Source: Nostoc sp. HK-01
GTDB taxonomy: Bacteria; Cyanobacteriota; Cyanobacteriia; Cyanobacteriales; Nostocaceae
Reading direction: 5' to 3'
NCBI GenBank assembly: GCA_003990705.1
Contig: AP018319.1
Coordinates: 124,001 to 188,000, forward strand
DNA length: 64,000 nucleotides
The position numbers were made by a program, and so were the translations under genes. Every line of letters begins with the position of its first letter. The first letter of the stretch is position 1. Under the pieces are notes generated by a model. It saw only the letters and a program-made list of their open reading frames with translations. It did not search any database and was not told the origin of the DNA. Of this stretch, positions 8,301 to 57,165 are shown piece after piece.

Positions 8301-8518
8301 GAAGGCGATCGCACTATCTGCTTGAAGCCGGTTGGAGAGCAGATAACGCAATTCAAGGGCTTGGGCGTTCTCATAGGACTAACCAAGCATCTGCACCAAT
8401 CTTTAAACCTGTCACCACCAATGTCAGGGGTGAACGCAGATTCATCTCGACTATTGCCCGGCGGCTGGACAGCTTGGGCGCACTCACCAGAGGACAAAGA
8501 CAAACTGGTGGTAACGGC
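5396..8518 (+). pseudogene. N-terminal part of a split DNA methylase / strawberry-notch-like helicase
   Basis: 1041 codons before an IS-supplied TAG. Residues about 136-143 (LEPSAGTG) are the SAM-binding motif I and N203-P-P-F206 is the amino-methyltransferase catalytic motif, so the N-terminal third is an N6-adenine or N4-cytosine DNA methylase. A superfamily-2 helicase follows: Walker A GDGTGTGKG with K491, and DECH at 591-594. The region near residue 960 (SDAGGTGRSYHAD, then GLGRSHRTNQ) matches the C-terminal helicase half of strawberry-notch-type proteins. The frame continues at 10171-11295, and the original protein would be about 1415 aa. Such methylase-helicase fusions occur on plasmids and phages. 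The fragment may still be translated, but it lacks the C-terminal 374 residues. Confidence 0.85.
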
Positions 8519-10161
8519 TAGGGTGTTGACTTTGAGAGCTTGATGATGGTAGCTTCTCATGCAAGAACTATGTAACGAACTCAAAGTCAATGCAAGAGTT
8601 TAAAAGCCCAAGTAGTCGGTTGGCAAGGCTATTTCACAAGGGTCGAGACAATTGGAAACAGAGAGCCTTGGAAAAGCAAAAAAAACTGAGAGCATTAGAA
8701 ATAAAAGTGAGAGATTTATCCGCATCAAGAGATTATTGGAAGAATCGAGCCAAAATTGCTGAAGAAAAACTACAAAAAGCAAACATAGAAACAGTCCAGG
8801 AAAAAAAAAGAGATTGACTCAAAAGAAGAATTAGTCGCCAAGGGGCATCATTATTCAGTCGAAACTATTCAGATTTCAGTGCAACAGGTTATAGAGTGTG
8901 GCAATAGTTATAGAGGAGTCGAGAAGACCTTTGATTTGTACAAAGAATTGTTTACACAGGAGACTCCCAGCTTTAGTAGTATTAGGAAATGGTTAGGGAG
9001 AATTGGTTTTTTTGAACTAACCAGAAAGAAAGAAATAAGAGATGACTGGATTTTTATTGTTGATTTAACTGTAGAATTAGGAACTGAAAAAGGACTGGTA
9101 ATTTTAGGAGTTTCACAACAAAAGCTAGAAGAAGAAATCTTGCCGCTAAGAAGAGGATTACAGCATCAGGATGTTCAAATTCTGGCATTAGAAATTATGC
9201 ATTCAACCAGAGGTGAACTCATCCAAGAGAAATTGACGGAAGTTAGCCTCAAATGTGGTTGTCCTCGACAAATAATTGCTGACCACGGAAGTGATATTCA
9301 AAAAGGAATTAAACTATATCAACAAAATCATCCTGATGTAATTTATACCTATGATGTAACTCATGCAATGGCTTTATTACTCAAGCATGAATTACATAGG
9401 TCGGATAAATACCAGTCTTTTATACAGCAATGTAGTCAATGTCGAAAACAACTGCAACAAACTGAACTATCTTTCTTATCTCCGCCCTCTCAACGCTCAC
9501 AATGCCGTTACTTTAACTTAGAAAAACTCGTAAATTGGGCTTTATATCTGCTAAATTCACCATTAGATATTTTAAGAGATTTAGTACCAAATACAGAACC
9601 AGATATTTTATATAGTAAATTGAAAGAGAAATTTACATGGTTGGCTGCTTACCAAGACTCACTAATAAATTGGAAGCAAATGGTTCAAATAACACGCTTT
9701 GTAGAAACTCAAATTAAATTGTGTGGGCTAAATCAAGAAACTTTCAGCATAATACAACAACACTTAACAACGCTTGTGAATTATTCAGAAGAGTTTGCAC
9801 AAAAAATTCTGAGCTATTTAACACAGGAACTTTCTTTTATTCAACCAGGACAAACATTATTAGCTACAACGGATGTCTTGGAATCGCTATTTGGAAAATA
9901 CAAGCAATTTTCTTCTCGTTCTCCTTTTAAACAAATAGGTCAAATGTTTTTGAGTATTTGTTTATCAACTATGAATTTAACAACTACTCTTGTGAAAGAA
10001 GCATTAGAAACAGTCCGTTTTTTAGATGTTGAAGACTGGGCGGCTCAAGTTTTTGGTCAATCCATGCTCTCGAAAAGAAGAATTTTGTTTTCTGTCTCAA
10101 CTGGCGACACAGAAATTGCATGATAAATTTTGAGGGTTTCTCCAACAAAATCAACACCCTA
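8519..10161 (+). mobile_element. 1643-bp insertion sequence, copy 1
   Basis: Ends are TAGGGTGTTGA at 8519-8529 and TCAACACCCTA at 10151-10161, an 11-bp perfect inverted repeat. The element is flanked by the 9-bp direct repeat GGTAACGGC at 8510-8518 and 10162-10170. It carries one transposase in two overlapping frames. A second copy is at 60131-62851. I could not assign the ISfinder family. Near-identity of the two copies points to recent movement. Confidence 0.92.
8590..10123 (+). CDS. Transposase of the 1643-bp IS, read through a +1 shift at A9
   Basis: Frame 1 (8590-8817, 75 aa) is a basic coiled-coil or DNA-binding segment ending at TGA. The downstream frame (GTG 8879 to 10123) stays open upstream to the run of nine A at 8801-8809. 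Joining the frames there gives QEKKKEIDSKEELVAKGHH and a continuous protein of about 510 aa. DDE candidates are D in IVDLT, D in IADHGSD and E in DVLESLFGKYK. Expression probably depends on slippage (ribosomal or transcriptional) at the A9 tract, as in several IS families. The second copy has the same A9 run, so this is not a random mutation. Confidence 0.75.
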
Positions 10162-10170
10162 GGTAACGGC

Positions 10171-11295
10171 ATCTTTGATACTAAGGATAACCTTGAATCT
10201 CAGTACGCCGAACATGCCCTGTATGGGTTGTTTAAGCAGATTTTCCAAGGTCGATTTTATGAAGTGCCTTTAGGAAAGTTCGAGCAGATGACAGGTTTAT
10301 CGCTGACTTCCCACGAAGGCGGCATGAAGATCGATCTTCCCCCGCTGCGACAATTCCTTAATCGGCTGCTGGCTTTGAGGATTGATATGCAGAATGTGAT
10401 TTTCGAGAGATTTGAGTTACTGCTGAGTCAACAGATTGAAGCAGCGATCGCGGCTGGTGTTTACGAGATGGGTGTGGAAACACTTCGAGCCGAGAAATTT
10501 ACCGTTGAAAGCAGTGAAACTGTATACACTCATCCTGCCACTAGTAGCGTAACAAACTATCTCAAGATAGAACGTACTCAGAAGAACAACATCAAAACTG
10601 CTGACGAGATGCTGGAGTTTGCTGCCAAGTACCAGGGGCAACTTATGGTCAATGAAAAGTCTGGTCATGCTGCTGTGTCAATTCCAACACACAGTATCTT
10701 CGACGGTGACGGTGGTGTTATTCCACGGGTTTTGTTGGTGCGATCGCAAAAAGAAACCCGCGTGACAGTCGAACAATTGAATTCGTCTGCGTGGCGGCAG
10801 GTTTCGGCTGATGCGTTCGTCGCGGCGTGGTCAAAAGAAGTTGACGCACTGCCCTCCTTCACCACCGATTACCTGCATTTGGTGACAGGCATTCTGTTAC
10901 CCATTTGGAAGATACTCCCACAATCCAGTAGTCGAGTATTTCGATTGCAAACCAGCGATGGCGCGAAAGTGCTTGGTCGGGTGGTATCGGCTCACGACAT
11001 TCAAACCGTGCGAGAGCAACTTGGATTGAAGAATCAAATGCTTTCTCCAGCAGAACTTGTGAAGCTAGTGTTGGACGAGAAGTATTCACAACAACTACCC
11101 GGAGGAATCACGCTGCGGCGGTCTTTCATTGCTGGCGAACCTCGGATTGAACTGGTTGATGCTTTATCTTTAGCCGATCAACTTGTGGCTGTGGGTTGTT
11201 TCACCGAAATTATAAATTGGCGTAAGCGGGTGTTTATTCCGACGAGCGATAAAGCTGCCTCAATTTTGGCGGCGGTAATTGGCATTCTGGGATAA
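10171..11295 (+). pseudogene. C-terminal part of the split methylase/helicase
   Basis: Reading from 10171, directly after the second target-site copy, the frame is exactly that of the 5396-8518 fragment: ...GNG then IFDTKD. It gives 374 residues of the strawberry-notch-type C-terminal domain (AEHALYGLFKQIFQGRF near the start). An in-frame ATG at 10120 lies inside the IS end, so a 391-aa product with an IS-encoded leader could be made. On its own this part has no ATPase or methylase motif. A strong terminator follows at 11310. Confidence 0.85.
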
Positions 11296-11309
11296 ACCAG
11301 AAATCTTTC

Positions 11310-11343
11310 AACCACTCTAATTAGTAGAGTGGTTATCTTTTTA
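11310..11343 (+). terminator. Rho-independent terminator after the methylase/helicase
   Basis: AACCACTCTA (from 11310) pairs with TAGAGTGGTT (to 11334) around a short ATTAG-type loop, followed by ATCTTTTTATTA. It sits 15 bp after the stop codon of the C-terminal fragment and closes the plasmid-type block. Confidence 0.8.
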
Positions 11344-12166
11344 TTAATTCTTCACATGACGATCAACGATGAGTGCTGCTGTCGTTGATATTGTGTTCTT
11401 CTTTAAATAATGAGCATCTAAATCATAGGGTGAACTAATTATTAATGTAGCTGCCAGTATTCCTTACTCTGTTCGCCAATGAATCTTGTTATGACATACA
11501 AAGTATTACTGTATCCATACTGTCCGTAGTGTTACGACTGCTGGAACTTGTCGTAAGCATTCTGGACTATGACCATAAAAGATTGCATCAAGCATCTGTT
11601 TTCCATCTTCGCTTTTTCATTGAATAGCGGATTCTTCATTTATTAAAAGATTAAATCAAAGTTTAACGAATTAATAATTATTTCTCTTTCCACCTCCAAT
11701 ACGGTTCGGTTAAAGGGGAAAGGCGAAGGGTGAAAGGGAAAGAAAAAACCTTTAACCCTTACCCTTTAACCTTTTCCCCAAATCTATTATTAGTTCAAAA
11801 TTCTTATCCGAACCGTATTGCTTCCACCTCTATGTATTTTTGTAGATGAACTTCTGTATCTTATGTAACCAAAAATTTTATATACTTTAGAATTTTATTA
11901 TAGATAATCTTTAAAGATAAAAATATAAAGCTTAAAAGAATTATTTTGTTAAATCTGGACAATAAAGTAGAAACAGGAGTTAATAAGTTATAGCTATTAC
12001 TTCTTAAGCTTTTATGCCTAAGATTATTTTTAAATAAATTAAATCTATTTAAGTAATAATTTTATATTGTCATAAATTAATTTAACTTTTAACAAAAGTA
12101 ATTTACATCTAAAAGATAGTTAAAAACTGTTTAATATTCAGCTTAACCTTATCTACAATATGCAAT
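11344..12166. other. Long AT-rich intergenic region
   Basis: About 820 bp without a credible gene. It contains the MITE-like hairpin at 11697-11821. The last 300 bp before the histidine kinase are over 75 percent A+T by eye and probably hold its promoter, but I cannot pick a confident -10/-35 pair. Confidence 0.6.
11697..11821. mobile_element. MITE-like hairpin element with 9-bp target duplication
   Basis: CAATACGGTTCGG at 11697-11709 is repeated inverted as CCGAACCGTATTG at 11808-11820. The direct repeat TTCCACCTC flanks the unit at 11688-11696 and 11822-11830. The interior also folds back: a G/A-rich strand (AAAGGGGAAAGGCGAAGGG) faces a C/T-rich strand (CCCTTTAACCTTTTCCCC). There is no coding capacity. 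These are the marks of a non-autonomous transposable unit of about 125 bp. The parent element is not in the window; the 1643-bp IS has different ends. Confidence 0.72.
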
Positions 12167-41758: not shown

Positions 41759-43081
41759 GGTGATTTTTGAAAAAGAAAATACCAGTTAAAGTGGTTGAAT
41801 CAAGATATCCCATTTGGGCAGAAGTGGATTTCTCTGTAATCTAGACTCGACTTGCTTCATGTCTTCCTTAGTTAGGGAAATCCCTTTTTGGTAAACAATG
41901 TTGCTTAAAGTCAAAATTGGATGTAATCCTTTCCAAGTCATGCTAGAAGCCCATGAAAGCATAACTTCAACATCAACAAGTTTGGTTCCATTCCAATGCT
42001 GTTCAAGAATGCCCCAACAGCGCTCTATGGGATTATATTTACTATGGTAGGGAGGATAGTAAAGTAATTGAATCGGTCTGTGGATGTGATCGACAAATTC
42101 AACCATCCTTTTCAAGAATTGAGTTCGTATTCCGCTACTTTCAGAACCGTTATCAATTTTAATTTGTATTAGTTCGGTATCTTGTCTTTCTTCTGGCGTA
42201 ATTGTTTTCCACCAATGAATCAGGTTATCAACAATGAAATCGCTAGTTTTATAGGAACTACCAAAGATAATATGTAATTGCCCATTGTCTTCGTCTACAA
42301 TCCCACAGGGAATGTATTTTTCCTTGCATCCCATATCGTGGTCACTAGCTTTATTATCTCCTCTGGTTTTTCCTCCACGTGAATAATCGCCAATATTTAC
42401 GGTGGCTTTACAGTCCATGCTTAGTCGCTTAACTGATTCGCTTGTTGCAAGATATGAGAAGTCTTTGATGTTGTTAAAGATGTCATCTGTTTGTGGGATT
42501 TTTTTTGAGGCTTGGCTTTTACAACTAGACGAAGACGATAGCCCATTCGGTTCAATACTTGTGCCATTGTACTAGCTCCTGGCAATTGCTCTGGGCTAAA
42601 TCCAAGCTCTTTTAGTTCTTTCAACGCCGACGCTGCTGTTAGTCTGGTATAGGCTAATGACGTTTTAAATGTTGGGTCTTGTTGAGCATGAGATTCTGCA
42701 AGCCGTTGCAGTGACAATGCCGCTTCCGGTTGTTTCTCCTCCCAAAGCTTTGCTCCGCTAAAGGTTGACTGTAATCCTACACAGGTTATTCCTGTTCGTT
42801 TTTCTGCCAATCCTACCTCTATATTGTTTCTACCCCAACCAAATACCGTTTCTGCCAGCCTTGCGCTTCCCTGGCAATACTTCAATGCCATCTGTGCCTG
42901 AAAACTCCGACGTTCCACTCCATTCATTTTCGATGCTGCCAACCGCAAGTCTTCTATTTGCGATGCTGTTAATGATTTGGCTGCGCTTGCTGTGGCTAAC
43001 CTATCCAAATGCTTGCTCCTGTTTGTTTTGCATCAAGGCTACATTCTACCTCTATTGGTAAATTCTTTCCTAGAAATCACC
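41759..43081 (-). mobile_element. ISAzo13-like insertion sequence, 1323 bp
   Basis: Ends are GGTGATTT (41759-41766) and AAATCACC (43074-43081), with TAA duplicated at 41756-41758 and 43082-43084. Removing the element plus one TAA joins ...RRAI and RRDLFEIR in one frame, which fixes the boundaries. It carries one frameshifted transposase on the minus strand. The 3-bp duplication fits my recollection of the ISAzo13 family. Confidence 0.85.
41786..43008 (-). CDS. ISAzo13-family transposase, joined by a -1 frameshift at A8
   Basis: The upstream frame (43008-42421) is a helix-turn-helix-rich N-terminus (DRLATASAAKSLTASQIEDL, then GASTMAQVLNRMGYRLR). The downstream frame (42418-41786) holds the DDE domain: D in NIGDYSRGGKTR, D in IQIKIDNGSESSG, and YYPPYHSKYNPIERCWGILE with the final E. 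On the minus strand the run of eight A at about 42507-42500 followed by TCC allows a -1 shift (A-AAA-AAA), giving KPQKKIPQTDDIFNNIKDFS and a continuous protein of about 408 residues. Programmed slippage is likely; a simple inactivating deletion is the alternative. Confidence 0.8.
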
Positions 43082-43084
43082 TAA

Positions 43085-44658
43085 GACGGGATTTGTTTGA
43101 GATTCGGATTAGAACTGCGGTACGTCCTCAAGATATTCGCAGAGCGATCGCAGAAGAACGCCCTTGTATTGTTCATTTCTGCGGACATGGCTTAGAAGAT
43201 GGCAGTTTGTTGCTAGAAGATGATGGCGGGAACAACAAACCTGTTTCGGCAGAAGGGTTGGCATCGCTGTTTAAGCTACACGCCGATTATGTTAACTGTG
43301 TCTTACTCAATGCCTGCTACTCAGCTAAACCCGCTCATGCAATTAACCAACATATTAATTATGCAATCGGCATGAACCAGCCCATTGGTGACAAAGCCGC
43401 AATTGCGTTTACTCAAGGATTTTATGATGGTTTGGGTTACGAAAATTCCGAAACTCAAGATGTATTCCAAAGAGCTTTTGACGAAGCTTTAGTTGCCATT
43501 CAAATGGAAGACGCTTCCCAGGAACAAATACCAGTTTTAAAAGACAAACTTTCTTATACTGAGAATTTCATACTGGAAACAAACACAAATATATATATTG
43601 AGCAAGAGACTAGCGAAAATATCCGATTTACCACTAATTCAGTTATACAATTAGAGTTCCCTAATGGCTCTGTGCCACTAAACTCACCTTTTTATATAGA
43701 ACCAGATGACATTAAATCTATTTATGAAACATTGCTGACTCCTGGTTCCTTAATTCGGATTAAAGCACCTAAATTTATGGGGAAAACCTCTTTAATAATT
43801 AGACTATTAGCTCATGCAGAAAAACAGCAAATTCAGTCAGTTTATTTAGATTTAGGTGGTATAGATAAAGCAATTATAACAAATCTTGATAAGTTATTAC
43901 GTTGGTTATGTGGAAGAATTAGTGATGAACTAGAAGTTGAAAATAAAGTATCATCAGCATGGAATACGGATATTTTAGGTAGTAATGATAATTGTACAGA
44001 TTATTTTAGAAAGTATATTTTAGTTAAAATTAATTCTCCTTTAGTTTTATGTTTAGATGAGGTAGATCGATTATTTCCTCATAGTGAAGTGGCAGAGGAT
44101 TTTTTTGGAATGCTGCGTTCTTGGCATGAGAAAGGAAGAATTTCTGATGTTTGGAAACAACTGCATTTAGTACTAGCGCATTCCACAGAGCCTTACATCC
44201 GTTTGGATATTCATCAATCCCCCTTTAATGCAGGAAGACCTGTAGAATTGGAAGAATTTAATCAACTGAAAAGCCAAGAATTAGTCACAAAACATGGAAT
44301 ACAAGATGGAGATGCTGTTTTAGAACAATTAAGGAGAATGGTGGGAGGACACCCCTACCTATTACGCTTGGCGTTGTACGAGATTGCAAGAGGAAAAGTT
44401 TCTCTGAAGAATTTATTACAATCGGCAACAACAGAAGCAGGGATTTATAGTCATCACTTACGTTCTTTATTAGGAGTTTTGCAAAAAGCACCAGAATTAC
44501 AAACGTGTTTCGACCGAGTAGTTAACTCAAATATAGGAGTAGAATTAGATTCAATCCAAATTTATAAATTGCATAGTTTGGGGCTAGTGCAAAAACAGGA
44601 TAATCATGTTATACCCCGTTGCCAACTTTACCGTGAGTATTTCCGCCGCGTCCTATAA
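43085..44658 (+). pseudogene. 3' fragment of the CHAT-AAA protein
   Basis: 523 codons in frame with 41386-41758; the intact protein would be 648 aa. The CHAT-type catalytic pair is visible: His in CIVHFCGHGLEDG and Cys in CVLLNACYSAK. After a linker, an AAA-like ATPase begins at NSPFYIEPDDIKS, with Walker A APKFMGKTSLI, Walker B VLCLDEVDRLF, and the sensor/winged-helix end MVGGHPYLLRLALYEI. It is homologous to 51459-53639 but has no TIR domain. A frame with an IS-encoded leader (from 43009) could still give a protein containing the CHAT and ATPase parts. The next gene starts 13 bp later with its Shine-Dalgarno overlapping this stop. Confidence 0.82.
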
Positions 44659-44671
44659 GGAGTTTTGAAAA

Positions 44672-47605
44672 TTGCTGGCCAGTAGTTCTAACTTCTATCA
44701 AGTTGGTGCAAGTCTCCCAATTGATGCTCCTAGTTATGTACAACGACAAGCAGACGAGGAGTTTTATCAGAAACTAAGGTCAGGAAAATTTTGCTATGTA
44801 CTGAACTCTCGGCAGATGGGCAAGTCCAGCTTGCGAGTACAAACTATGCAAAGGTTACAAAATGAAGGGACAGTCTGTGCGGCGATTGACTTGACAGGAA
44901 TTGGTAAACATAAGATAACACAATCACAGTGGTATGGGGGAATTGTTTACGCTTTAGTAGAAAGCTGCCAACTAGAAGATAGATTTGATTTTGATTGGCG
45001 AACATGGTGGCAGAAAAATCAAGTAATCCTAGATCCAGTTACGTGTTTGAGATTGTTTATAGAACACGTATTACTGGAAAAAATTCAGCAACCAATAGTC
45101 ATTTTTGTAGATGAAATTGATAGAGTACTGAGCCAGGATTTCTCTTTAGATGATTTTTTTGCTCTGATTCGTTTTTTTCAAAATCAACGAGTTGATGATC
45201 CTAAATTTGAGAGGCTGACATTTGCATTATTAGGTGTAGCAACTCCTAGTGATTTGATTACTGATAAAACCCAAACCCCTTTTAATATTGGCGAAGGAAT
45301 TGAACTGCATGGATTTCAGATTTCGGAAGTCCAACCGCTAATTAACGGATTGCAGGGCAAAGTATCAAATCCTCAAGAACTGATGGAGTCGATATTATAT
45401 TGGACAAGCGGACAACCGTTTCTTACTCAAAAGTTGTGTAAGTTTATGGTAGAGGAGTCAGAAAAAGATAAACCTCGTTCAGTCGCGGAAGTAGTAAGGG
45501 CAAGAATTATTGAAAACTGGGAATCTCAAGACGATCCAGAGCATTTAAGAACAATACGAGATCGCATACTTTTAAATGAAGAGAGAGCTAGTTATTTATT
45601 AGAACTCTATCAACAAATTCGACAGTTAGGAGAAATAGATAGTAACAATAGTTTAGAAGTCAGTCAATTACAATTATCGGGGTTAATTGTTAAAAGACAA
45701 AGAAAATTAAAAATTTATAATCCTATTTATCAAGAAGTTTTTGATTATAAGTGGATTAAAAGCCAATTAAAAAATCTGCGACCCTATTCAGAAAATTTTC
45801 GTTTCTGGGTCGCTTCTAGAGGAACTGATGAATCACGGTTGCTGACAGGCAATGCGTTACGAGAAGCAGAAGAATGGGCAAGAAATAAGAATTTAAGTTA
45901 TCAAGATAAACAGTTTTTAGCCGCTAGTAAAGAAAAGGAAATTCAAGAAGAGATTGCTGCCAAGCAACAAGAAGCAGCTTTAGAAAGAGAGAGGAAAGAT
46001 AGGGAAGCAGCAGAGAAGAGGAGTTTGGTACTAGGTGAAGCAAATTTAGTATTGATTGAAGCAAATCGGAAATCTCGGCAGCGAATTAGTATAGGAATTG
46101 TTATTTTGGTTGTTACAGTTCTGGCAGCAGCAACTGTAGGTGGAATAGCGAAAAAACAGGTTGATGAAGCTAATAAACAAGTTGAAACTGCTGATGCTCA
46201 GGTTAATGCAGCTAATAAACGAGTTGAAACTGCTAACTCTCAAGTTGCTAAGGCTAATAAACGAGTTGAAACTGCTAATTCTCAGGTTGATAATGCGAAT
46301 AAAAGTTTAAAACAAGCCCAGATAAAAATTAGAGAAGCACGAACAAAAGAACAAGAAGCAAATAATAATGCTGCACAAGCAATAAAGCAAGAACAACAAG
46401 CAAGACAAGAAGTAGAAGACGCTAAGAAAAATGTTAAAGAGGCTGAGAGTAGAGAAAAAGAAATTTTAGCAAAACTTACAGATAAAGAAAACGAACTTAA
46501 ACATACAGAAAACGAACTTCAACAAACAAGAGCCAAAAATGAAGATACTAAAGCAGAAATTAAAAACGTTCGCCAACTAGTAGCCTTAGCTGGACAATTG
46601 CGAAACCAAAGTTCATCAGATTCAGATGAAGCTTTAAGATTAGCAGCATTATCATTTAATATTGATAACCACGAACTCAAGCAATCACTATTACTTGCTG
46701 CTCAATCACAAGTCCATCAACAATTAAAAGAATGGAAGAAGGCAGAAACAAAAATAAAAGAAAGCAATCAATATATATCTAAAGCAAATAATAGTGAATT
46801 AACCTCTAAAAAAGGTTTACAAGTTCAAGTTTTATTCTACAAAACTCAAGGTGATTTACTAGCCCAGAATGAAAAAACTCAGGAAGCTATAGAATCTTAC
46901 AGCAAAGCATTTAATATCTTAAAAAATCATCCCAATGACACTGATTTTAACCAAGACAATCAGTTACTCACAGGAGAGAATGTTGAATCAGTTTACCAGA
47001 GTTTAAGGGAGCTAGACCCTCAAGATAAAAAATTCGAGTTAGCAATAACAAAACGTTTATATACTCAACTCGATTACTTTCTAAAGGCTCAAAACTGGGA
47101 AGCTGCTGATAAAAAGACATACAAACTCATGCTCAACATTGCGAAAATAGAAGCACAAGGATATTTAGATTACCAAGACATCAATAGTTTCTCATGCCTA
47201 GACCTACAAAGAATAGACCAGCTTTGGGTTAGCAATTCAAACACGCTTTTTGGCTTTAATGTGCAGAAACAGATATGGATTAACACGGGGAATAAGCTGG
47301 GGATCAAACCGGAAGACTTGGCTAACAAGAACTTTGAAAATTATTTACGGTTTTCCAAGGCAGTAAGATGGTATAACGACCGAGGGCAAGAAGGAAACTC
47401 AATAGGTCGTTTTGTGAGTTATGGTAGCTTAATAAAGCGTATAAAAAATAACCCAACTTACAGGGGAAGTCTACCCAGGTACTTTATATTTAATGTAACG
47501 AACACGGGGTCGAACACGGATAACACGGATGAGATACGTTGGGCAGGCAATCGTGATGAAGCTTATCAGGTCTTCTTCTCTCGCGTTGCGACTTGTAAAC
47601 TTTAA
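44672..47605 (+). CDS. AAA-like ATPase - TM - coiled coil - GUN4 protein
   Basis: 977 aa with a TTG start, supported by AAGGAG at 44657-44662 that overlaps the stop of the CHAT-AAA gene. Residues 15-370 are an AAA-like domain of the AAA_35 type: Walker A LNSRQMGKSSL with K51, Walker B VIFVDEIDRVL, and TSGQPFLTQKLC. One transmembrane helix lies at about 473-493. Repeated KRVETANSQV-type heptads then make a long coiled coil to about 625. Helical TPR-like repeats follow, and a GUN4 domain sits at about 793-935 (FLKAQNWEAADKKTYKLML, LQRIDQLWV, FGFNVQKQIW). GUN4 binds tetrapyrroles in chlorophyll synthesis; here it may sense such ligands. The partner CHAT gene is translationally coupled. Confidence 0.85.
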   Translation: MLASSSNFYQVGASLPIDAPSYVQRQADEEFYQKLRSGKFCYVLNSRQMGKSSLRVQTMQRLQNEGTVCAAIDLTGIGKHKITQSQWYGGIVYALVESCQLEDRFDFDWRTWWQKNQVILDPVTCLRLFIEHVLLEKIQQPIVIFVDEIDRVLSQDFSLDDFFALIRFFQNQRVDDPKFERLTFALLGVATPSDLITDKTQTPFNIGEGIELHGFQISEVQPLINGLQGKVSNPQELMESILYWTSGQPFLTQKLCKFMVEESEKDKPRSVAEVVRARIIENWESQDDPEHLRTIRDRILLNEERASYLLELYQQIRQLGEIDSNNSLEVSQLQLSGLIVKRQRKLKIYNPIYQEVFDYKWIKSQLKNLRPYSENFRFWVASRGTDESRLLTGNALREAEEWARNKNLSYQDKQFLAASKEKEIQEEIAAKQQEAALERERKDREAAEKRSLVLGEANLVLIEANRKSRQRISIGIVILVVTVLAAATVGGIAKKQVDEANKQVETADAQVNAANKRVETANSQVAKANKRVETANSQVDNANKSLKQAQIKIREARTKEQEANNNAAQAIKQEQQARQEVEDAKKNVKEAESREKEILAKLTDKENELKHTENELQQTRAKNEDTKAEIKNVRQLVALAGQLRNQSSSDSDEALRLAALSFNIDNHELKQSLLLAAQSQVHQQLKEWKKAETKIKESNQYISKANNSELTSKKGLQVQVLFYKTQGDLLAQNEKTQEAIESYSKAFNILKNHPNDTDFNQDNQLLTGENVESVYQSLRELDPQDKKFELAITKRLYTQLDYFLKAQNWEAADKKTYKLMLNIAKIEAQGYLDYQDINSFSCLDLQRIDQLWVSNSNTLFGFNVQKQIWINTGNKLGIKPEDLANKNFENYLRFSKAVRWYNDRGQEGNSIGRFVSYGSLIKRIKNNPTYRGSLPRYFIFNVTNTGSNTDNTDEIRWAGNRDEAYQVFFSRVATCKL

Positions 47606-48112: not shown

Positions 48113-49198
48113 CTAGCTTACAGGCGTATAATTTAGTGTAGTAATCGTATGAGTGTTCAATTTTCGCGCTAGAGCAGATAGATTTAATTTATTCAAAATA
48201 CTAGATTTAATTGGGCGTTTCTCATCCCAAAAAATCAGTGAATGGTAGAAGTCAGAAGCTAAGGTAGAAGTTAAAAGAATCAAAACTTGGTAAGCTAATT
48301 GCTCATTTTCAAAAGCAAGAAAATAAACAGTATCATCAAAAACAGTAGGTCTACCATCAATCATTCCAATGAGTTGGAAATTAAGTTTTTTATATAATCC
48401 ACAAATCGCTATTTTCCAAGGTGAAAAGGTATAGTTTCCTACACCAAATATAGAAAAACGGGGGCTATTATTATATATTTTACTTTTTCTATAATCTAAG
48501 TGATTGGAATGAGACTCTAAATACTTCCAGGTTTTAGGCGCTACATTTTTAATGGATTCAGTTGACTCACCTATAAAGCGTTGAGTAACTAAAACATATC
48601 TGTTAGTAGCTTGTGTTCGACCTTGAGCCACATCAGACCCTTTGAGTAAAGGGAAAATAAATGTTTCTTCAATATCAACAATTTCTCCTAATCCATTTAT
48701 ATAATTATCATTAATTTTATATAATTCCATTATATCTGAGCAATCATGCTTAATACCAGACCGCCATTTTTCTTCTGATTTTGTAGCGTATAAGTATTTT
48801 AGTTTATCAAAAATAAACACGTCTTTAACTAAAATTTTATCTTTATAGCCTATGCGATAGCAACTTTTATCTTCTAAGTTATTAAAAACATCACAGAAAT
48901 AATTATGTGAAATAGAATCAAATTTACATAGCAACAAACAAGCATCAACGTTTGCTCCAAAATACTTTTTTGCATCTATTTTATATGTAGCGAAGTATTT
49001 TAGAGATATTTTCTGAGAATGGATATAGTTTAATAATTTTCTTGACACAGATGTTTTGCACAACATAGCAAGATAGGCATGACGCTTTTGTAGGTATTGA
49101 ACTATACGGATCAACATCCACTCAGAAATATCAAAATTGCTCTTGCCAGTAATTGCATCTAATCCATTAAATTTTTGGAAATTACTTTTCAACGGTAA
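48113..49198 (-). pseudogene. C-terminal fragment of an N6-adenine DNA methylase
   Basis: Homology begins near NFQKFNGLDAITGKSNFDIS, a conserved post-catalytic segment of Eco57I-like or type I methylases. It continues with EWMLIRIVQYLQKRHAYLAM and LCKTSVSRKLL, and ends with a target-recognition-like region (FSPWKIAICGLYKKLNF, GMIDGRPTVFDDTVYFLAFE). The SAM-binding and NPPY parts are absent. The frame stays open on the minus strand to 49381, but the upstream part (49199-49381) is antisense to the caspase gene start and its neighbour and is probably not homologous. The break at about 49200 is a recombination junction. Confidence 0.65.
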
Positions 49199-49199
49199 A

Positions 49200-49355
49200 T
49201 TATTACCATTGATCGATCCTTGCTGTGAGTTAGTTATAGATGAAATTGAACTGTCAGTAGAAATCAACGGTGAAGGACAGATCAGTTTGTTTGGAATTGG
49301 CGGGGGCAAAGCTGGTGGCAAAGGTGCAATGACCTTCAAGTTCAAACGGAAGTAA
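49200..49355 (+). pseudogene. C-terminal remnant of a small caspase-partner gene
   Basis: In frame before the caspase gene: CCELVIDEIELSVEINGEG, then ISLFGIGGGKAGGKGA and the end MTFKFKRK, stop 7 bp before the caspase ATG. The alternating beta pattern ending in a basic tail resembles the small co-occurring proteins encoded ahead of caspase- or trypsin-like peptidases in bacterial conflict systems. The 5' part is gone, replaced by the methylase fragment on the opposite strand. The identification is from memory and weak. Confidence 0.4.
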
Positions 49356-49362
49356 TACAGAG

Positions 49363-51237
49363 ATGGGTAAGAATTGGGCAATAGTAGTTGGAATCAACAA
49401 TTACGATAACCTCCAGCCACTCAAGTATGCCAAACGAGACGCAGAGGTGATGAAGGCTTGGTTCAAAGAAGAAGCGAGCTTTGACCAAGTTTTTCTATTT
49501 ACTGAAGATTCCCCACCAATCCCAACAAATCCGCCAATTGCAACGCAACCAACTCAAGGGCGTTTTAAGCGATTTTTAAATGCACAGTTTGAAGAACCGT
49601 TATTGAAACCAGAAGATAATTTATGGTTCTTTTTTGCAGGACATGGGAAGCGTTTTGTAGATCAAGACTATCTCATGTTTTTGGATAGCGACCCAACGGA
49701 TCACACAACAGCAATATCTGTTGATTATGTAACGCAAAGGCTACGCAGATGTGGGGCAGACAACGTAGTTTTGTTAATTGATGCGTGTCGAGATGAAGGC
49801 GATCGTTCTGGCTTAGGTGTGGGGATACAGGAACATAAAGGCGTGATTACCTTTTACTCTTGCACTGCCAGCCAAAAATCTTGGGAAATTGATGAATTAC
49901 AACATGGGTCATTTACATACAGCTTGCTAGAAGGATTGCGATTACAGGGGGAGGCTAATTGTGCGACAGTGGAACGTTTAGAACAGCATCTGCGTTACCG
50001 AGTACCGCAACTGAATGTTCTTTACAAAAAACCTGAACAAAATCCGTCATTGAATGCAGAGCCGCCCTACAAGATGTATTACATCTTATTAGAGCAAGCA
50101 GCCAGAGTAAGAGATATAGAGCCGTTAAAGTACCAGGCATCTTTGGCTGAAAATGAAGGAGACTTATTACTAGCAGAACAACTATGGATCAGAGTCTTGG
50201 CAGTGTCTCGTGCTGATAGAGATGCAATTAGAGCAATAAAAAGAATAGCTCAACGGCAAGTACAACCCTTACAGCCTATTTCTGAGACTTTATCAATTAC
50301 TCAACCTGTTGCTTCGTTATCAGGAGACAGAGCCGGAGTTTCTGAGCATACCGTTATTCATCAAAGTAACCGATCAGTTTTTAAATTTGATGTAGTAACG
50401 GTAAATGCTAAAGGAGAAGAAATCAAACGTGAACACAGACAAGCAGAGTACTTTATCGAACATCTTCCAGATAACATTGCCCTAGAACTGGTTGCTATTC
50501 CTGGTGGCAATTTCATCATGGGTTCCCCGCTAGATGAAGCCACACGTTACAGCGATGAAAGCCCTCAGCATGAAGTTAGAGTTTCCTCTTTCTTTATGGG
50601 TAAGTATCCCATCACTCAAGCACAATGGAGGGCTGTGGCAGCTTTGAAACCTGTAAATCGAGATTTAAACCCTAATCCATCTCACTTTCAAGGTGATGAT
50701 TTACCAGTAGAGCAAATTTCTTGGTATGAAGCGGTAGAGTTTTGCGCTCGACTATCACAATACACTAATAGACATTACCGATTACCCACTGAAGCTGAAT
50801 GGGAGTATGCTTGTAGAGCAGGTACGACTAGTACATTTCACTTTGGCGAAACCATCACTTCGGATTTAGCAAACTACGATGGTGAACACACTTATGGACA
50901 AGAACCCCAAGGAAAATTTAGAAAGCAAACAACACCAGTAGGCAGTTTTGAAGTAGCAAATGCCTTTGGTCTGTATGATATGCACGGTAATGTCTGGGAA
51001 TGGTGCTATGACAACTGGCATGATAACTACGAGGGTGCGCCAGTCGATGGTAGTTCTTGGGTAGATGACACTAACCACGAGCTTGCAAATGACAACAGTC
51101 CTAGGGTGCTGCGCGGTGGTTCCTGGGATTGCAATCCCAGGTGTTGCCGTTGTGCATCTCGTGACAACTCCGACGAGCCAGACAAAAGTTACAACTACGA
51201 CGGTTTTCGGATTGTCGTTTCCGCTACGAGGACTTAA
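49363..51237 (+). CDS. Caspase-like protease fused to an FGE/C-type-lectin-fold domain
   Basis: 624 aa. Residues 1-245 are a peptidase C14 (metacaspase-like) domain: WAIVVGINNYDNLQPLKYAK at the start, catalytic H94 in FFAGHGKR and C142 in LLIDACRDEG. A helical linker spans 245-320. Residues about 370-624 are a formylglycine-generating-enzyme-like domain (VAIPGGNFIMGSPLDEA, HEVRVSSFFMGKYPITQAQW, YRLPTEAEWEYACRAG, YDMHGNVWEWCYD). The last 40 residues have the composition of a retroelement-diversified region. Cytoplasmic: no signal or membrane helix. It probably recognises a target through the FGE fold and cleaves proteins when engaged. It sits between the two CHAT/AAA modules. Confidence 0.88.
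   Translation: MGKNWAIVVGINNYDNLQPLKYAKRDAEVMKAWFKEEASFDQVFLFTEDSPPIPTNPPIATQPTQGRFKRFLNAQFEEPLLKPEDNLWFFFAGHGKRFVDQDYLMFLDSDPTDHTTAISVDYVTQRLRRCGADNVVLLIDACRDEGDRSGLGVGIQEHKGVITFYSCTASQKSWEIDELQHGSFTYSLLEGLRLQGEANCATVERLEQHLRYRVPQLNVLYKKPEQNPSLNAEPPYKMYYILLEQAARVRDIEPLKYQASLAENEGDLLLAEQLWIRVLAVSRADRDAIRAIKRIAQRQVQPLQPISETLSITQPVASLSGDRAGVSEHTVIHQSNRSVFKFDVVTVNAKGEEIKREHRQAEYFIEHLPDNIALELVAIPGGNFIMGSPLDEATRYSDESPQHEVRVSSFFMGKYPITQAQWRAVAALKPVNRDLNPNPSHFQGDDLPVEQISWYEAVEFCARLSQYTNRHYRLPTEAEWEYACRAGTTSTFHFGETITSDLANYDGEHTYGQEPQGKFRKQTTPVGSFEVANAFGLYDMHGNVWEWCYDNWHDNYEGAPVDGSSWVDDTNHELANDNSPRVLRGGSWDCNPRCCRCASRDNSDEPDKSYNYDGFRIVVSATRT
51118..51207 (+). other. Putative DGR variable region
   Basis: Codons 586-615 of the caspase gene encode GGSWDCNPRCCRCASR and then DNSDEPDKSYNYDGFR. 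The residues D, C, N, S, Y at changing positions almost all come from codons of the form NNC or NNT (GAT TGC AAT, TGT TGC, GAC AAC TCC GAC, TAC AAC TAC GAC). That is what adenine-directed mutagenesis of AAC/AAT codons gives. RGGSW and GFR are the usual conserved borders. No reverse transcriptase or template repeat is in the window. Confidence 0.65.
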
Positions 51238-51388
51238 TTTTATTTACTTTTTATTCTCTACACCTTTGTTAAGCCAACTGATCTTATTTCATTACAAACC
51301 AAGAGCGATCGCCCAAGCGCAGAAATTCACCTGAGCCGCAATATTGCTGATTGTTTACCTCTTGTAAGAGAAATATTGCGCTCTTTTG

Positions 51389-51445
51389 CGTAAAACCACA
51401 TACTCAAGATGTAAGCTCTATAGAAAACAGTGCTTTTGCAAAACT
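51389..51445 (+). promoter_or_regulatory. Leader motif shared with the pentapeptide-repeat gene
   Basis: CGTAAAACCACATACTCAAG at 51389-51408, then ATGTA, and TCTAGCCCAAA ending 7-8 bp before the ATG at 51459. It matches the leader at 40104-40139. A common control signal for the two halves of the island is possible, as is a dispersed repeat. Confidence 0.5.
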
Positions 51446-51458
51446 CTAGCCCAAATTC

Positions 51459-53639
51459 ATGAATAATGATTCTATTCAGAAAATTCTACTGTTAGCTGCC
51501 AATCCCATCGGCAGTAGATATCTGCGTTTGGGTGAAGAGATGCGGGAGATTGAAGAGGGGCTAAAAAGGTCAAAGAATCGAGAACGGTATTCTCTAGCCA
51601 CAGCCCAAGCAGTACGATACCGAGATATCCGCAGAGCGATATTAGAACACGAACCGCAGATTATTCATTTTTCAGGACATGGGGCAGGAGAAGAAGGTTT
51701 AGTTTTTGAAGATGAAACGGGAGCAGCAAAGCTAGTTGATGCAGAAGCATTAGCTGGACTGTTTCAACTATTTTCAGGGCAATTGGAATGTGTTGTGCTT
51801 AATGCGTGTTACTCACAGGTACAAGCAGAAGCGATCGCGCAACACATTCCTTGCGTCATTGGGATGAAGAAAGCGATTGGAGATCGAGCGGCGATTGAGT
51901 TTGCCGTCGGGTTTTATGATGCGTTGGGGGCGAAAAAATCCTATGAATTTGCCTACAAGCTTGGCTGTAATGCAATTAGAATGGCAGGAATACCAGAACA
52001 GGATATTCCCACTCTCTTGACAACTGCTGAGATTGAGTCAATGTCTGCGAAGACTCAACCCCCTCAACTTGCGTCATCCACTGTCTCGACAAAGCCAACG
52101 ACTAGCCAGCGAGTTTTCATCAGTTATCGCTCTCAAGAGCCTGATGCGGGACTAGCACAAGAATTTTACGACCAACTGGTAGCTGCCGGACACGAAGCGT
52201 TTATGGCTGGGGCAAGCATTAGCTGGGGACAAAATTGGGTAGAACGAATTGACGAAGAATTGAAACGCTGTGATTATTTCCTGTTGCTGCTGTCGGAACA
52301 ATCAGCAAGCAGTGATATGGTGGCAGGAGAAGTCAGGACTGCGAGGGAGTTGCAGGCTAAACTGGGCAAGCCCGTCATTTTGCCAGTAAGGATCAATTTA
52401 CCTTTTGATGACCCGCTCAATTACGAACTGCGAAGTTTCTTGCAAACCATTCAGCAACGGCAATGGAAATCCCAGGCAGACACTCCAGTTATCTTATCGG
52501 AAATCCTCTCACTCTTATCAACAGGATCAGCACCTAAACCTGTTGCCGAAGAAATTACTCCTACGCCAATTGTAGTCAAGCACGATCATCGGCCGTTGCC
52601 CGTAGCAGAACTAGAACTCCCAGGCGGGACGATACAACTAGCTTCTCGGTTTTACGTCCAGCGAGAGCCTTGGGAATCACGTTGCTATGAGCAGATGGAA
52701 AAAAACGCCGGACTTATCCGCATCAAGGCTCCGCGACAGATGGGAAAAACTTCCCTTTTAGCCCGGATTTGCCACCGCGCAAAAGAGCAAGGCTATCGCA
52801 CGGCTACCTTAGACTTCTTAGAAACTGATGAGACAATTTTTGAAGATTTAACGGTATTCTTGAAACGGTTTTGTGCGTTAATCAGTCGCAAGCTGGGAAT
52901 ATCGCCCCGAAAAGTCTCCGAATTTTGGGATGAAGAGTTATTCGGCCCCAAGGAAAACTGCAATGATTATTTTGAGCAGTGCATATTGGCAGATGTGACG
53001 GTTCCCTTATTTTTGGGATTGGACGAACTAGATCGGCTGTTTCCTTACAATGCAGTTGCCAAAGAATTTTTAGCTCTGTTGCGTTCCTGGAATGAAAAGG
53101 CGAAAGTAAATGAAACTTGGGCTAAATTACGGATGGCGATCGCACATTCCACAGAATCCTATGTGGTGATGGACACCAATTCATCTCCCTTTAATGTAGG
53201 GCTGGCAGTAGAGTTGCCAGAGTTTAACCAAGAGCAAGTTTTAGATTTAGTAGCACGGCACGGATTGAGTTGGGGGAGTGAAGAAACCAGACAACTGATG
53301 GAGATGGTGGGAGGACACCCTTACTTGGTGCGCCTTGCCCTTTATCACATTGCTCAAGGGGATTTGACGTTAACCCAACTTCTAGCCACAGCCTCGACTG
53401 ATGCAGGTATTTATGGTGAACACCTGCGGCGGCATTTGTGGAATTTACAGCAAAACCCAGAGTTAGCCGCAGCATTCCAGAAAGTGGTGGCAACAGATAA
53501 ACCCGTGTGTTTGCCCACAATGTCAGCTTTTAAATTAAATGGGATGGGTTTAGTTAGCTTGCAGGGAAATGAAGTGATTGTTCGCCATGAGTGTCTGTAC
53601 CGTCCTTATTTCCAGTCACGATTGAGGATACGGGAATGA
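51459..53639 (+). CDS. CHAT-TIR-AAA fusion protein
   Basis: 726 aa in three parts. Residues 1-195 are a CHAT-type protease: H74 in IIHFSGHGAGEEG and C117 in CVVLNACYSQ. Residues about 217-345 are a TIR domain: RVFISYRSQEPDAGLAQEF, FMAGASISWGQNW, CDYFLLLLSEQSASS, with E291 (VAGEVRTAREL) at the position of the NAD-cleaving glutamate. Residues about 390-726 are an AAA-like ATPase: Walker A APRQMGKTSLL with K430, Walker B LFLGLDELDRLF, and MVGGHPYLVRLALYHI. Homologous to the interrupted 41386-44658 gene except for the TIR insertion and the missing Q/N-rich N-terminus. Two effector domains (protease, possible NADase) on one ATPase suggest an abortive-infection-type output. Followed by its AAA-GUN4 partner. 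Confidence 0.87.
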   Translation: MNNDSIQKILLLAANPIGSRYLRLGEEMREIEEGLKRSKNRERYSLATAQAVRYRDIRRAILEHEPQIIHFSGHGAGEEGLVFEDETGAAKLVDAEALAGLFQLFSGQLECVVLNACYSQVQAEAIAQHIPCVIGMKKAIGDRAAIEFAVGFYDALGAKKSYEFAYKLGCNAIRMAGIPEQDIPTLLTTAEIESMSAKTQPPQLASSTVSTKPTTSQRVFISYRSQEPDAGLAQEFYDQLVAAGHEAFMAGASISWGQNWVERIDEELKRCDYFLLLLSEQSASSDMVAGEVRTARELQAKLGKPVILPVRINLPFDDPLNYELRSFLQTIQQRQWKSQADTPVILSEILSLLSTGSAPKPVAEEITPTPIVVKHDHRPLPVAELELPGGTIQLASRFYVQREPWESRCYEQMEKNAGLIRIKAPRQMGKTSLLARICHRAKEQGYRTATLDFLETDETIFEDLTVFLKRFCALISRKLGISPRKVSEFWDEELFGPKENCNDYFEQCILADVTVPLFLGLDELDRLFPYNAVAKEFLALLRSWNEKAKVNETWAKLRMAIAHSTESYVVMDTNSSPFNVGLAVELPEFNQEQVLDLVARHGLSWGSEETRQLMEMVGGHPYLVRLALYHIAQGDLTLTQLLATASTDAGIYGEHLRRHLWNLQQNPELAAAFQKVVATDKPVCLPTMSAFKLNGMGLVSLQGNEVIVRHECLYRPYFQSRLRIRE

Positions 53640-53650
53640 AGGACTCATAC

Positions 53651-53713
53651 CAATTCGCAATTCGCAATGACGCTCGAAGACTCGCTACCGCTTCGCTAAC
53701 GCAATTCGCAATT
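53651..53713. repeat. GCAATTCGC repeats between the second module's genes
   Basis: Two clusters of AATTCGCAATTCGCAAT-like units flank a CGCTACCGCTTCGCTAACG segment. The family is the same as at 3327-3502. It lengthens the gap between the CHAT-TIR-AAA and AAA-GUN4 genes to 133 bp, compared with 13 bp in the first module. Confidence 0.65.
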
Positions 53714-53772
53714 AAAAAAATCAGGTGCAGCAAAGCTTTTAGAGTTTACATTTGTATCAAATTGTTCGTGAA

Positions 53773-56700
53773 ATGGTATCAGTCAACAACGGCAGCTATC
53801 GCTATCAAGTGGGGGGAGCCTTGGGTCAAGATGTTCCCTCTTATGTCGCACGGGCAGCAGATGAGCAGTTCTATGAAGCTCTGCAAGCGCAAGAATTCTG
53901 CTATGTTCTCAACTCCCGCCAGATGGGAAAGTCTAGCTTGATGGTGCGGACTCTGGCTCGGTTAAAGTCAGAAGGCTGGGCGGGAATCGTCTTGGATTTT
54001 TCTGCGAAAGACAGTCAAATTGAGCAAGCAGAACGCTGGTACAACGGCATCATCAACCAACTCAATCGTCATTTTGGCTTACTTGATAATGCCCGTACTT
54101 GGCTCAAGGAAAGGGATTTTCTCTCGCCAGTAGAACGCCTAGAAGAGTTTATTGAAACGGTGCTGCTGCCGGGAATGAATCAGCGTATCGTTATTTTCAT
54201 CGACGAAATCGACAGCACCCTCAATCTGCCCTTTACCGATGACTTTTTTGCCCTGATTCGCGCCTGTTACAACAAACGAGCTGAAAATGCAGACTACAAG
54301 CGGCTGACCTTTGCCTTGTTGGGCGTGGCGGCTCCTGCCGAGTTGATTAGCGACAAAAAACGAACACCTTTTAATATTGGTCAGGCGATCGATCTTAAGG
54401 GCTTTGGGTTTGAGGAAGCGCAACCTTTGGTGAAGGGGCTGGAAACAAAAGCCCACAATCCCCAGGCAGTCTTAGCAGAAATCCTCAAGTGGACGGGAGG
54501 ACAGCCTTTTTTAACCCAGAGGTTATGTCAGTTGGTTGTAGATAACACAGAGTTTATCTCGGCAGGAAAGGAAGCTGAGTTTATTGAGAAGTTGGCGCAC
54601 AATCGCTTGATTGATAACTGGGAATCTCAGGACGAACAGGAGCATTTGAAAACCATTAGAAATCGCCTGTTGAGTAATGAACAAAAGGCTGCATACTTGC
54701 TGGAGTTGTATCGGCAAATTCGCCAAGCTGGAAAGCTCAAGTTCCAGAATACTGCCGAAGAAAGGGACTTGCAATTATCTGGGTTAGTGGTTAAACGACA
54801 CGACAACTTAATCGTTTACAATCCCATCTATGAACAAGTGTTTAACGAGCAGTGGATTAATACTGAGTTAGGTAAATTACGCCCTTATGCTGAAAACTTT
54901 CGGGCTTGGGTTGCTTCTGGAGGCAAGGATGAATCACGGCTATTGCGGGGTCAAGCTTTACAGGATGCAAAACAATGGAGTTTAAATCAGAATTTGACCT
55001 ATCAAGATCAGCAGTTTTTAGCTGCCAGTGAAGGGAAAGAAATTCAAGAAAAAAATGCAGTAGCAGACAAAGAAGCACAGCTACAAAGAGAAATAAAAGA
55101 TAGGGAGGCAGCCGAAGCCAGAAATCAATTGCTCAGTGATGCCAATAAGAAAGCTCAACGGCGAATTAGTGTTGGAGTTTTTGTTTTGGTTGTTGCAGTT
55201 TTGGGAGGTGCAACTGTAGGTGGATTAGCTAATAAAAAAGTTGAAAGTGCTAACTTTCAGGTTAGTGAGGCTAATAAGAATTTAGCACAAGCCCAGATAA
55301 AGGTTACACAAGCACAAAAAAATGAACAGAAAGCTAAAGATAGTGCTACACAAGCACTCAAGCAGGAACAGCAGGTAAGAAAAGAAGCAGAAAATGCTAA
55401 TAAAACTGTTAAAGAAGCTAGGCGTAGAGAAATAGAAATTTTAACAAGACTTGCAGCTAAAGAAAGTGAACTTAAACAAACAAGCTCACAAAATGAAAAT
55501 ACTAGAGCAGAAATTGTGAACGTTCGCCAACTTGTAGCTTTAGCTGGAAAATTACGCGATCAAAATTCATCGGATTCAGATGAAGCTTTAAGATTAGCAG
55601 CGTTATCATTTAATGTTGATAACCATCAACTTAAGCAAGCACTATTACTTTCTGCTAAATCACAAGCATACCTGCAATTGAAAGATTGGAGTAATGCCAA
55701 AAATGAAATTCGAGAAAGTCTATCAAATTTGTACAAAATTAATGATAAAATTTTAAATTCAGTTCAAGGCTTGCAAGCTCAAGTATTAATTAAAAAAAGT
55801 CTGGGCGATTTTCTAGCTCAGAATAAACAAATTTCAAAAGCCATACAATCTTATACAGAAGCATTCAAAATTTTAAAAAATTATCCAAATGAAACTGATT
55901 TTACTAAAAATAATCAATTACTTACAGGCGAAAATATTGAATCAGTTTACCGGAACCTAATTGAGATAAACCCTCTATACAAAGAAGTTGAGAAATCACT
56001 TACACAACACTTATATGCCCAACTTAAATATTTTTTAAAGGCTAAAAATTGGAGTGATGCTGATGAAAAAACAATCTCCCTTATGTTCAATATTGCCAAA
56101 AAGGAAAAAACAAGAGATATAAATGATGAAGATATTAATAATTCTTATTGCTTAGATATTAAAAGAATAGACAATCTTTGGGTCAATGCAGACAAACGTT
56201 TTGGGTTTAGTGTACAAAAGCAGATATGGATTAGTACGGGGAATAGATTAGGTTCTAAGCCAGGGGACTGGACTGATAAAGATTCTGAAAATTTTGATCG
56301 GTTTTTCAAGTCCGTAGGATGGGATGGCGTAATACGGGGAGGGGAGTATGATGTTACACTCGGCTACAACGAGCTATTAAAGCGTATAAATGATGACCCT
56401 TTGTATGGAAAGGGAGGGCTACCCTACTTACCTTGGGACTTGAATTCCAACATCGGAACAAAAACTTTAATTTCTATCTTAACGCATTGCGATTTACTAG
56501 TATACAAAGGATTTATGACCCAATCTCCCCCGCGCAGCAATCTTCCATACCTTATGAAAGGTGATGAAGGAGAGGCAGTGAGGATTCTGCAAGAACGCTT
56601 ACGGATAGCAGGTTATTATTATGGCAATTTCACAGGTGTCTTTGGCCCTATTACTGAAGAATCTGTCAAACGCTTTCAAGAAGCTAATAAACTTGAACCT

Positions 56701-57165
56701 AATGGAATTGCTGGCCCCGATACTCTCACTAAACTGCCAGCAACGGAAGAAAGTTCTCGTGAAACTTCTGCACCAATACAAGCATTCAGTAAAGATAGTA
56801 TTCGTATGGGTGATCGCGGTGAAGCTGTTAGAGTTTTACAGGAGCAATTAACTAAAGCAGGATACTTACAAGGAGAGCCAAAGGGATATTTTGATTCTCG
56901 TACTTCAAATGCAATACGTCGGTTTCAAGTAGATAATTACTTAGTAGTTAGTGGCATTGCAGATTCTAATACTAGAGCTAAATTATATAGTTTAGTTAAT
57001 AATCCTAAGAGTGATATTACTGTTATTGAATTGCAAAGATCGTTACGAGACAGAGGTTTTTATAAGGGAGCCTTGAACGGTATAATGACGGATGATACTC
57101 GGCAAGCTATTCAAAAAGCCCAAGAATTTTATGGTATCAGTGTAAATGATCTTAAACATGAATAA
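53773..57165 (+). CDS. AAA-like ATPase - TM - coiled coil - GUN4 - peptidoglycan-binding protein
   Basis: 1130 aa from ATG 53773, the position that aligns with the start of its paralogue at 44672. The AAA domain has Walker A LNSRQMGKSSLM and Walker B VIFIDEIDSTL. One transmembrane helix lies at about 462-484, preceded by KKAQRR. The coiled coil and helical repeats run to about 740, and GUN4 spans about 746-890 (FLKAKNWSDADEKTISLMF, IKRIDNLWV, FGFSVQKQIW). Three peptidoglycan-binding (PGB_1) repeats follow at about 925-985, 1015-1080 and 1088-1127 (GDEGEAVRILQERLRIAGYY; GDRGEAVRVLQEQLTKAGYL). With the N-terminus inside, GUN4 and the wall-binding repeats would be periplasmic. It pairs with the CHAT-TIR-AAA gene. 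Confidence 0.86.
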   Translation: MVSVNNGSYRYQVGGALGQDVPSYVARAADEQFYEALQAQEFCYVLNSRQMGKSSLMVRTLARLKSEGWAGIVLDFSAKDSQIEQAERWYNGIINQLNRHFGLLDNARTWLKERDFLSPVERLEEFIETVLLPGMNQRIVIFIDEIDSTLNLPFTDDFFALIRACYNKRAENADYKRLTFALLGVAAPAELISDKKRTPFNIGQAIDLKGFGFEEAQPLVKGLETKAHNPQAVLAEILKWTGGQPFLTQRLCQLVVDNTEFISAGKEAEFIEKLAHNRLIDNWESQDEQEHLKTIRNRLLSNEQKAAYLLELYRQIRQAGKLKFQNTAEERDLQLSGLVVKRHDNLIVYNPIYEQVFNEQWINTELGKLRPYAENFRAWVASGGKDESRLLRGQALQDAKQWSLNQNLTYQDQQFLAASEGKEIQEKNAVADKEAQLQREIKDREAAEARNQLLSDANKKAQRRISVGVFVLVVAVLGGATVGGLANKKVESANFQVSEANKNLAQAQIKVTQAQKNEQKAKDSATQALKQEQQVRKEAENANKTVKEARRREIEILTRLAAKESELKQTSSQNENTRAEIVNVRQLVALAGKLRDQNSSDSDEALRLAALSFNVDNHQLKQALLLSAKSQAYLQLKDWSNAKNEIRESLSNLYKINDKILNSVQGLQAQVLIKKSLGDFLAQNKQISKAIQSYTEAFKILKNYPNETDFTKNNQLLTGENIESVYRNLIEINPLYKEVEKSLTQHLYAQLKYFLKAKNWSDADEKTISLMFNIAKKEKTRDINDEDINNSYCLDIKRIDNLWVNADKRFGFSVQKQIWISTGNRLGSKPGDWTDKDSENFDRFFKSVGWDGVIRGGEYDVTLGYNELLKRINDDPLYGKGGLPYLPWDLNSNIGTKTLISILTHCDLLVYKGFMTQSPPRSNLPYLMKGDEGEAVRILQERLRIAGYYYGNFTGVFGPITEESVKRFQEANKLEPNGIAGPDTLTKLPATEESSRETSAPIQAFSKDSIRMGDRGEAVRVLQEQLTKAGYLQGEPKGYFDSRTSNAIRRFQVDNYLVVSGIADSNTRAKLYSLVNNPKSDITVIELQRSLRDRGFYKGALNGIMTDDTRQAIQKAQEFYGISVNDLKHE

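Follow-up and report, generated by a model that had tools for sequence, protein, structure and literature searches.

The window analysed here is a stretch of 64,000 nucleotides from Nostoc sp. HK-01, contig AP018319.1, positions 124,001-188,000 (C2:124001-188000 of the assembly). The assembly comprises 7.52 Mb in 8 contigs and has a completeness of 99.98%. A gene for a caspase-FGE protein lies among the following features; coordinates are those of the window.

48113..49381, minus strand: type II DNA methyltransferase gene, 5'-truncated (PADLOC MTase_II, 4.6e-172, profile positions 119-473 of 475).
49237..49355, plus strand: what is left of the 3' end of an upstream Pepco adaptor gene, broken off near 49240 (an intact 129-aa Pepco occupies the same position in G010; PF24393, 2.7e-32).
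49363..51237, plus strand: caspase-FGE protein of 624 aa (open frame; Pfam Peptidase_C14 and FGE-sulfatase; PADLOC caspase).
49372..50061, plus strand: caspase domain, aa 4-233, N-terminal (Pfam Peptidase_C14, 2.3e-22; motif positions).
50485..51216, plus strand: FGE / C-type-lectin-fold domain, aa 375-618 (Pfam FGE-sulfatase PF03781, 4.4e-61; PDB matches).
51105..51126, plus strand: 5' stretch GTGCTGCGCGGTGGTTCCTGG, common to the variable regions (VRs) and template repeats (TRs) of relatives (alignment).
51127..51201, plus strand: variable core of 25 codons, aligning codon for codon with the 25-codon TR of G014:C1 (NNNPRNCRSAYRNNNDNPDNRNNNN).
51202..51245, plus strand: 3' flank similar in alignment to the initiation-of-homing (IMH) end of active targets; a putative IMH.
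51304..57165, plus strand: CHAT-TIR-AAA_35 and AAA_35-GUN4 genes (Pfam), beginning 67 bp past the caspase-FGE stop codon.

The caspase domain has both motifs of the His/Cys dyad intact (FFFAGHG and LIDACRD, by motif scan of ORF 49363-51237). The caspase half has no match among PDB sequences at E 0.01. The PDB matches of the FGE domain are PvdO, TvpA, the variable protein of a diversity-generating retroelement (DGR), and FGE enzymes. The variable region sits at the 3' end of this FGE/C-type-lectin fold, the position asked of a DGR target. The domains and the His-Cys dyad suggest that the ORF encodes a caspase-type conflict effector, whose protease activity would be triggered by a ligand bound to the lectin domain.

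The VR at 51118-51210 consists of GSW, 25 codons, and GFR, and forms the C-terminal end of the FGE-sulfatase domain. The codons are GAT TGC AAT CCC AGG TGT TGC CGT TGT GCA TCT CGT GAC AAC TCC GAC GAG CCA GAC AAA AGT TAC AAC TAC GAC. Twenty of the 25 end in C or T, and 17/25 encode D, C, N, S or Y, so that the arrangement first reported for this site, RGGSW followed by C/T-ending codons and then GFR, is confirmed. Upstream of the 5' stretch (51105..51126) the VR and TR sequences of the alignment with relatives diverge; at the other end the 3' flank of the window, GTTTCCGCTACGAGGACTTAATT, can be compared with that of the G031 VR, GTTTCCGCCGCGAGGACTTAGTT. RGGSW...GFR is the usual ending of FGE domains and is also found in non-DGR paralogs, and an FGE paralog of the same genome that bears no sign of a DGR has C/T-ending codons at 16/24 positions. 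The sequence observation alone could therefore not decide whether the region is of DGR type.

Two further features of the VR were recorded. A perfect 20-bp palindrome, CCTGGGATTGCAATCCCAGG, lies at 51122-51141; it is the longest in the 64 kb, and palindromes of that length occurred in 0 of 20 shuffles of the window. It depends on a non-adenine change, AAC to GAT, in the first variable codon, and quasi-palindrome correction might be the source of that change. The VR also has Cys residues at +2 and +7 after GGSW (51130-51150), the same spacing as the Cys pair of the aligned FGE enzymes (GGSFLCHESYC), which we take to be the catalytic pair. This spacing is probably the coincidence of a variable codon.

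The genome holds no recognizable DGR cassette. The VR as a DNA query, a pattern allowing each VR base or A (90 bp, ≤3 mismatches), and BLAST with a reconstructed template each found only the VR itself in the genome, and a generic FGE-template pattern found no TR there. As controls, the generic pattern finds templates in 55/218 family members, and the reconstructed template matches in 49/391 genomes of the order, a count that includes the window's own VR. The A-permissive pattern was uninformative over a broad contig collection since it also matches poly-A runs; those of its cyanobacterial matches that were examined were poly-A tracts. RVT_1 gives 8 matches in the genome at 7 loci; judged by eye from their motifs, three have QGG...SP and are of group II intron type, three have PQG.P.SP and resemble retrons, and one is different; the DGR RT motif (I/L)GNLTSQ was seen in none of the 7. 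The only sequences that the DGR RT of G014 retrieved from the genome were group II relatives, 23-28% identical; at 1e-20 it retrieved nothing. An Avd query had its best match in the genome at E=0.57, broken by stops. In many relatives these same queries do recover cassettes. No cassette lies just outside the window (C2:110-124.5 kb and C2:187.5-200 kb).

The original prediction had placed the retroelement outside the window and had named the lack of a near-identical template in the complete genome as a refutation. The whole genome has neither a template nor a DGR RT or Avd. The accompanying view of a rapidly adapting effector is thus unsupported for the genome as assembled, where the evidence instead favours an inherited or imported variant that is presently frozen. 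Since avd, RT and TR are absent from the genome, the gene would be an orphan, frozen DGR target.

Relatives of the gene do lie in cassettes. Active loci have the order target-avd-RT-TR, in which the Pfam families bAvd and RVT_1 bear out the Avd and RT assignments. Three targets of relatives differ from their adjacent TRs at adenines only: 15/32 adenines and 0/60 other bases for the G014:C1 target, whose VR also has 25 codons; 16/29 and 0/60 for the G031 target; and 16/32 and 0/57 for the G223 target. The same holds for two caspase-FGE proteins that are homologous to the window protein over their full length, one in G014:C3 (60% identical; 20/32 adenines, 0/57 other bases) and one in G002:C147, of the same genus (52% identical; 11/27 adenines, 0/62 other bases). 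By these comparisons caspase-lectin DGR targets are demonstrated in close relatives. The G002:C147 gene (L094 1048-3150) has a perfect TR adjoining it and no DGR RT was found in its draft genome, an instance of a TR outliving its RT.

The relatives form a graded series, from full cassettes in G014, G004 and G010, through a TR without a detectable RT in G002 (draft) and G019 and a fragmentary RT in G016, to neither here; the intermediate states are signs of decay. In a tree of FGE domains calculated without the VR, the window falls in a 7-row clade (support 95/95) that includes 4 TR-linked targets, and its nearest neighbour is the G014:C1 target (72% identity). The proposal of a DGR variable region in a caspase effector stands in part: the VR is of the type that DGRs rewrite in Nostocaceae relatives, and close relatives show adenine-only differences between VR and TR, but active diversification is not supported for this genome as assembled. 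We consider it likely that the caspase-FGE gene is a cassette-less, presently frozen DGR target, left by cassette loss or by gene import.

Within that reading, recombination with a DGR-bearing strain may have brought in the 3' half, in which case no cassette was ever lost here. The protein is, as judged from its relatives, a modular chimaera: aa 1-333 share 86% identity with a same-genus protein (G010) whose C-terminus is instead GUN4-TIR-EAD1; for the FGE half, the closest sequence is a DGR target from another genus. The homology of 3 relatives begins at 49237, and that of the methyltransferase stops near 49243, right against what remains of Pepco, which gives a clean rearrangement junction near 49240. 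Downstream, the CHAT-TIR-AAA_35 / AAA_35-GUN4 module occupies the position that avd-RT-TR has in relatives. For most of its length it duplicates, at 90-92% identity, the module that follows a second FGE locus on the same replicon (C2:455-464 kb; L113 12665-17900). A third, more distant copy lies at 43009-47605 (CHAT-AAA_35, AAA_35-GUN4).

The chimaeric protein speaks for import, against which stand the cassettes carried by same-genus genomes (G004 and G010). Import does not conflict with the orphan-target reading, and the rearrangement signs and the chimaeric protein fit cassette loss and cassette-less import alike; the two are not separable here. Import alone is a realistic possibility, though not the one we would expect to prevail.

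The window VR was compared with 57 FGE-type TRs from relatives and 0 from its own genome; none of the genomes searched yielded a cognate TR, and all comparisons rest on the templates of other genomes, so that the evidence for adenine-specific mutation of this VR is indirect. The best of the 57 disagrees with it at 12/28 template adenines and at 8/61 other bases (p=0.003), a ratio on which non-DGR controls reach p=0.0006-0.03. Because template adenines sit at unconstrained residues, such counts with non-cognate TRs do not on their own split DGR targets from ordinary FGE tails, and DGR origin was therefore judged by the non-adenine rate and by a codon-position test. The non-adenine differences amount to 13% in the window VR versus 15-20 of 55-62 (24-36%) in 4 paralogs of the same genome that fall outside the TR-linked clades. 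Live targets usually have 1-4 other-base differences from the TRs of other loci, and 11 in the worst case. A G004 target adjoining an intact cassette differs at 6/65 other bases, so that the window value of 8/61 is not out of range. An unusual CRCAS stretch of the window VR recurs in the template of G178 (NNNPENCRCASRNNN), and part of the non-adenine differences is evidently template polymorphism.

In ordinary gene evolution most changes fall at third codon positions. Between the window VR and G014:C1 the share of mismatches at codon positions 1+2 is 0.73, versus 0.47 upstream in the same gene (p=0.006), and with G014:C3 the shift is stronger (p=0.0003). With other relatives it is marginal (p=0.027, 0.068 and 0.079). 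Live target pairs give p=0.0007 and 0.017, and 5 non-DGR control pairs give p=0.055-0.94, one of them marginal at 0.055. A simple count of codon positions in AAY codons, for the window alone, is 7/3/2 (p=0.12, not significant).

An ordinary FGE C-terminus without any history of DGR rewriting, resembling a VR through its conserved RGGSW...GFR motif and codon preference, would account for the occurrence of that motif and of C/T-ending codons in non-DGR paralogs, for a genome without a template, and for the 8 non-adenine mismatches with the best TR. It fits poorly with the placement of the FGE domain among TR-linked targets, with the codon-position shift, with a length and flank that align with the G014:C1 and G031 cassettes, and with the higher non-adenine rate of the genome's own non-DGR paralogs. 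We regard it as unlikely, while the marginal shifts against other relatives lead us to keep a small share of the probability for ordinary evolution. Descent of 51118-51210 from a DGR target is well supported by alignment and phylogeny, namely by the clade shared with TR-linked targets, the matching 3' flank, and the shift at codon positions 1+2.

The second FGE locus, at C2:452-458 kb (L113 = G000:C2:446000-465500, 6267-11742), comprises a MoxR-like AAA gene, a gene for an FGE protein of 952 aa, and another gene that encodes FGE alone. Relative to a foreign TR, the first VR of this locus is changed at 15/31 adenines and at 3/61 other bases, and reads clearly as a DGR product. The second VR is weaker (13/28 adenines, 10/55 other bases; codon-position p=0.14). 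In the tree, both FGE domains are placed within TR-linked clades, and no TR or RT was found at this locus. FGE paralogs elsewhere in the genome, on C1 and C7, are outside these clades. The replicon of the caspase-FGE gene thus holds at least one further DGR-type VR, also without a cassette.

That a DGR on an unassembled replicon, or one in other cells of the population, still diversifies the gene in trans is very improbable: trans-acting or remote targets are known in other bacteria (PMC10907252, PMC7517822) and cyanobacterial DGRs are found on plasmids, but the genome is 99.98% complete in 8 contigs, none of its at least two VR-like loci has any cassette part, and the VR differs at non-adenines from all known templates, differences that recent retrohoming from one of these would erase. 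An active cassette in trans was itself rejected for want of a TR, RT or Avd in the genome.

The preferred reading remains that of an orphan, frozen target. The domain make-up of the caspase-FGE gene, its relationship to template-linked targets, its VR-type sequence and an assembly devoid of cassette parts are shown; this lack would reflect loss, or import of the target without its cassette. The lectin-fold (FGE) C-terminal domain would be the recognition part of a caspase-like protease. In an ancestor or donor, a DGR RT would have copied the adenines of a template as random bases, and the resulting cDNA would have replaced the 3' end of the gene, shaping the last 25 variable codons. By analogy with described systems (PMC7517822, PMC10907252, PMC7159879), the tip may bind a ligand, perhaps from an invader, to which the caspase domain would respond. 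Here the tip would pass on unchanged, without continual rewriting; presumably it still binds something, and binding would trigger the protease. Several DGR-derived tips on one 485-kb replicon, with the cassette dispensed with, could point to a strategy of 'diversify, then lock', in which a binder is fixed by loss of the mutator or passed horizontally as a finished receptor, but this is speculative and we hold it as rather doubtful.

DGR variable proteins with orthocaspase N-termini and a C-terminal CLec domain have been described in cyanobacteria (Vallota-Eastman et al. 2020, PMC7517822), and the window protein shares their domain order, fold, and variable-region position. The same study reported the all3226 paralog of Nostoc PCC 7120, which retains a remnant of TR-VR homology without an RT nearby, and suggested removal of the diversification parts. 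PCC 7120 keeps two DGRs elsewhere, whereas the HK-01 genome as a whole lacks them. Putative antigen sensors of conflict systems that are diversified by DGRs include FGE/CLec sensors with peptidase effectors and MoxR/VMAP (Dore et al. 2024, PMC10907252; Kaur et al. 2020, PMC7159879). The tie between FGE/CLec and a peptidase effector is the same here, and the second VR-like locus of HK-01 follows a MoxR-like AAA gene; those sensors, however, are in genomes with active cassettes, and their diversification was seen in populations. Also close are the full-length caspase-FGE homologs of G014:C3 and G002:C147 with their adjacent TRs and adenine-only differences; G014 has target-avd-RT-TR, G002 a TR and no DGR RT that could be found, and the window neither. 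Cyanobacterial orthocaspase-CLec targets, remote targets, and an RT-less paralog with a remnant TR are thus already published, and the only novelty is that such targets occur in a genome entirely lacking a cassette. This corrects the inference that a DGR-like variable region means a retroelement somewhere in the genome. To the known systems it adds a genome that has orphan targets and no DGR, together with a graded cassette series in its relatives, a series that makes it testable whether bacteria fix successful DGR receptors through mutator loss.
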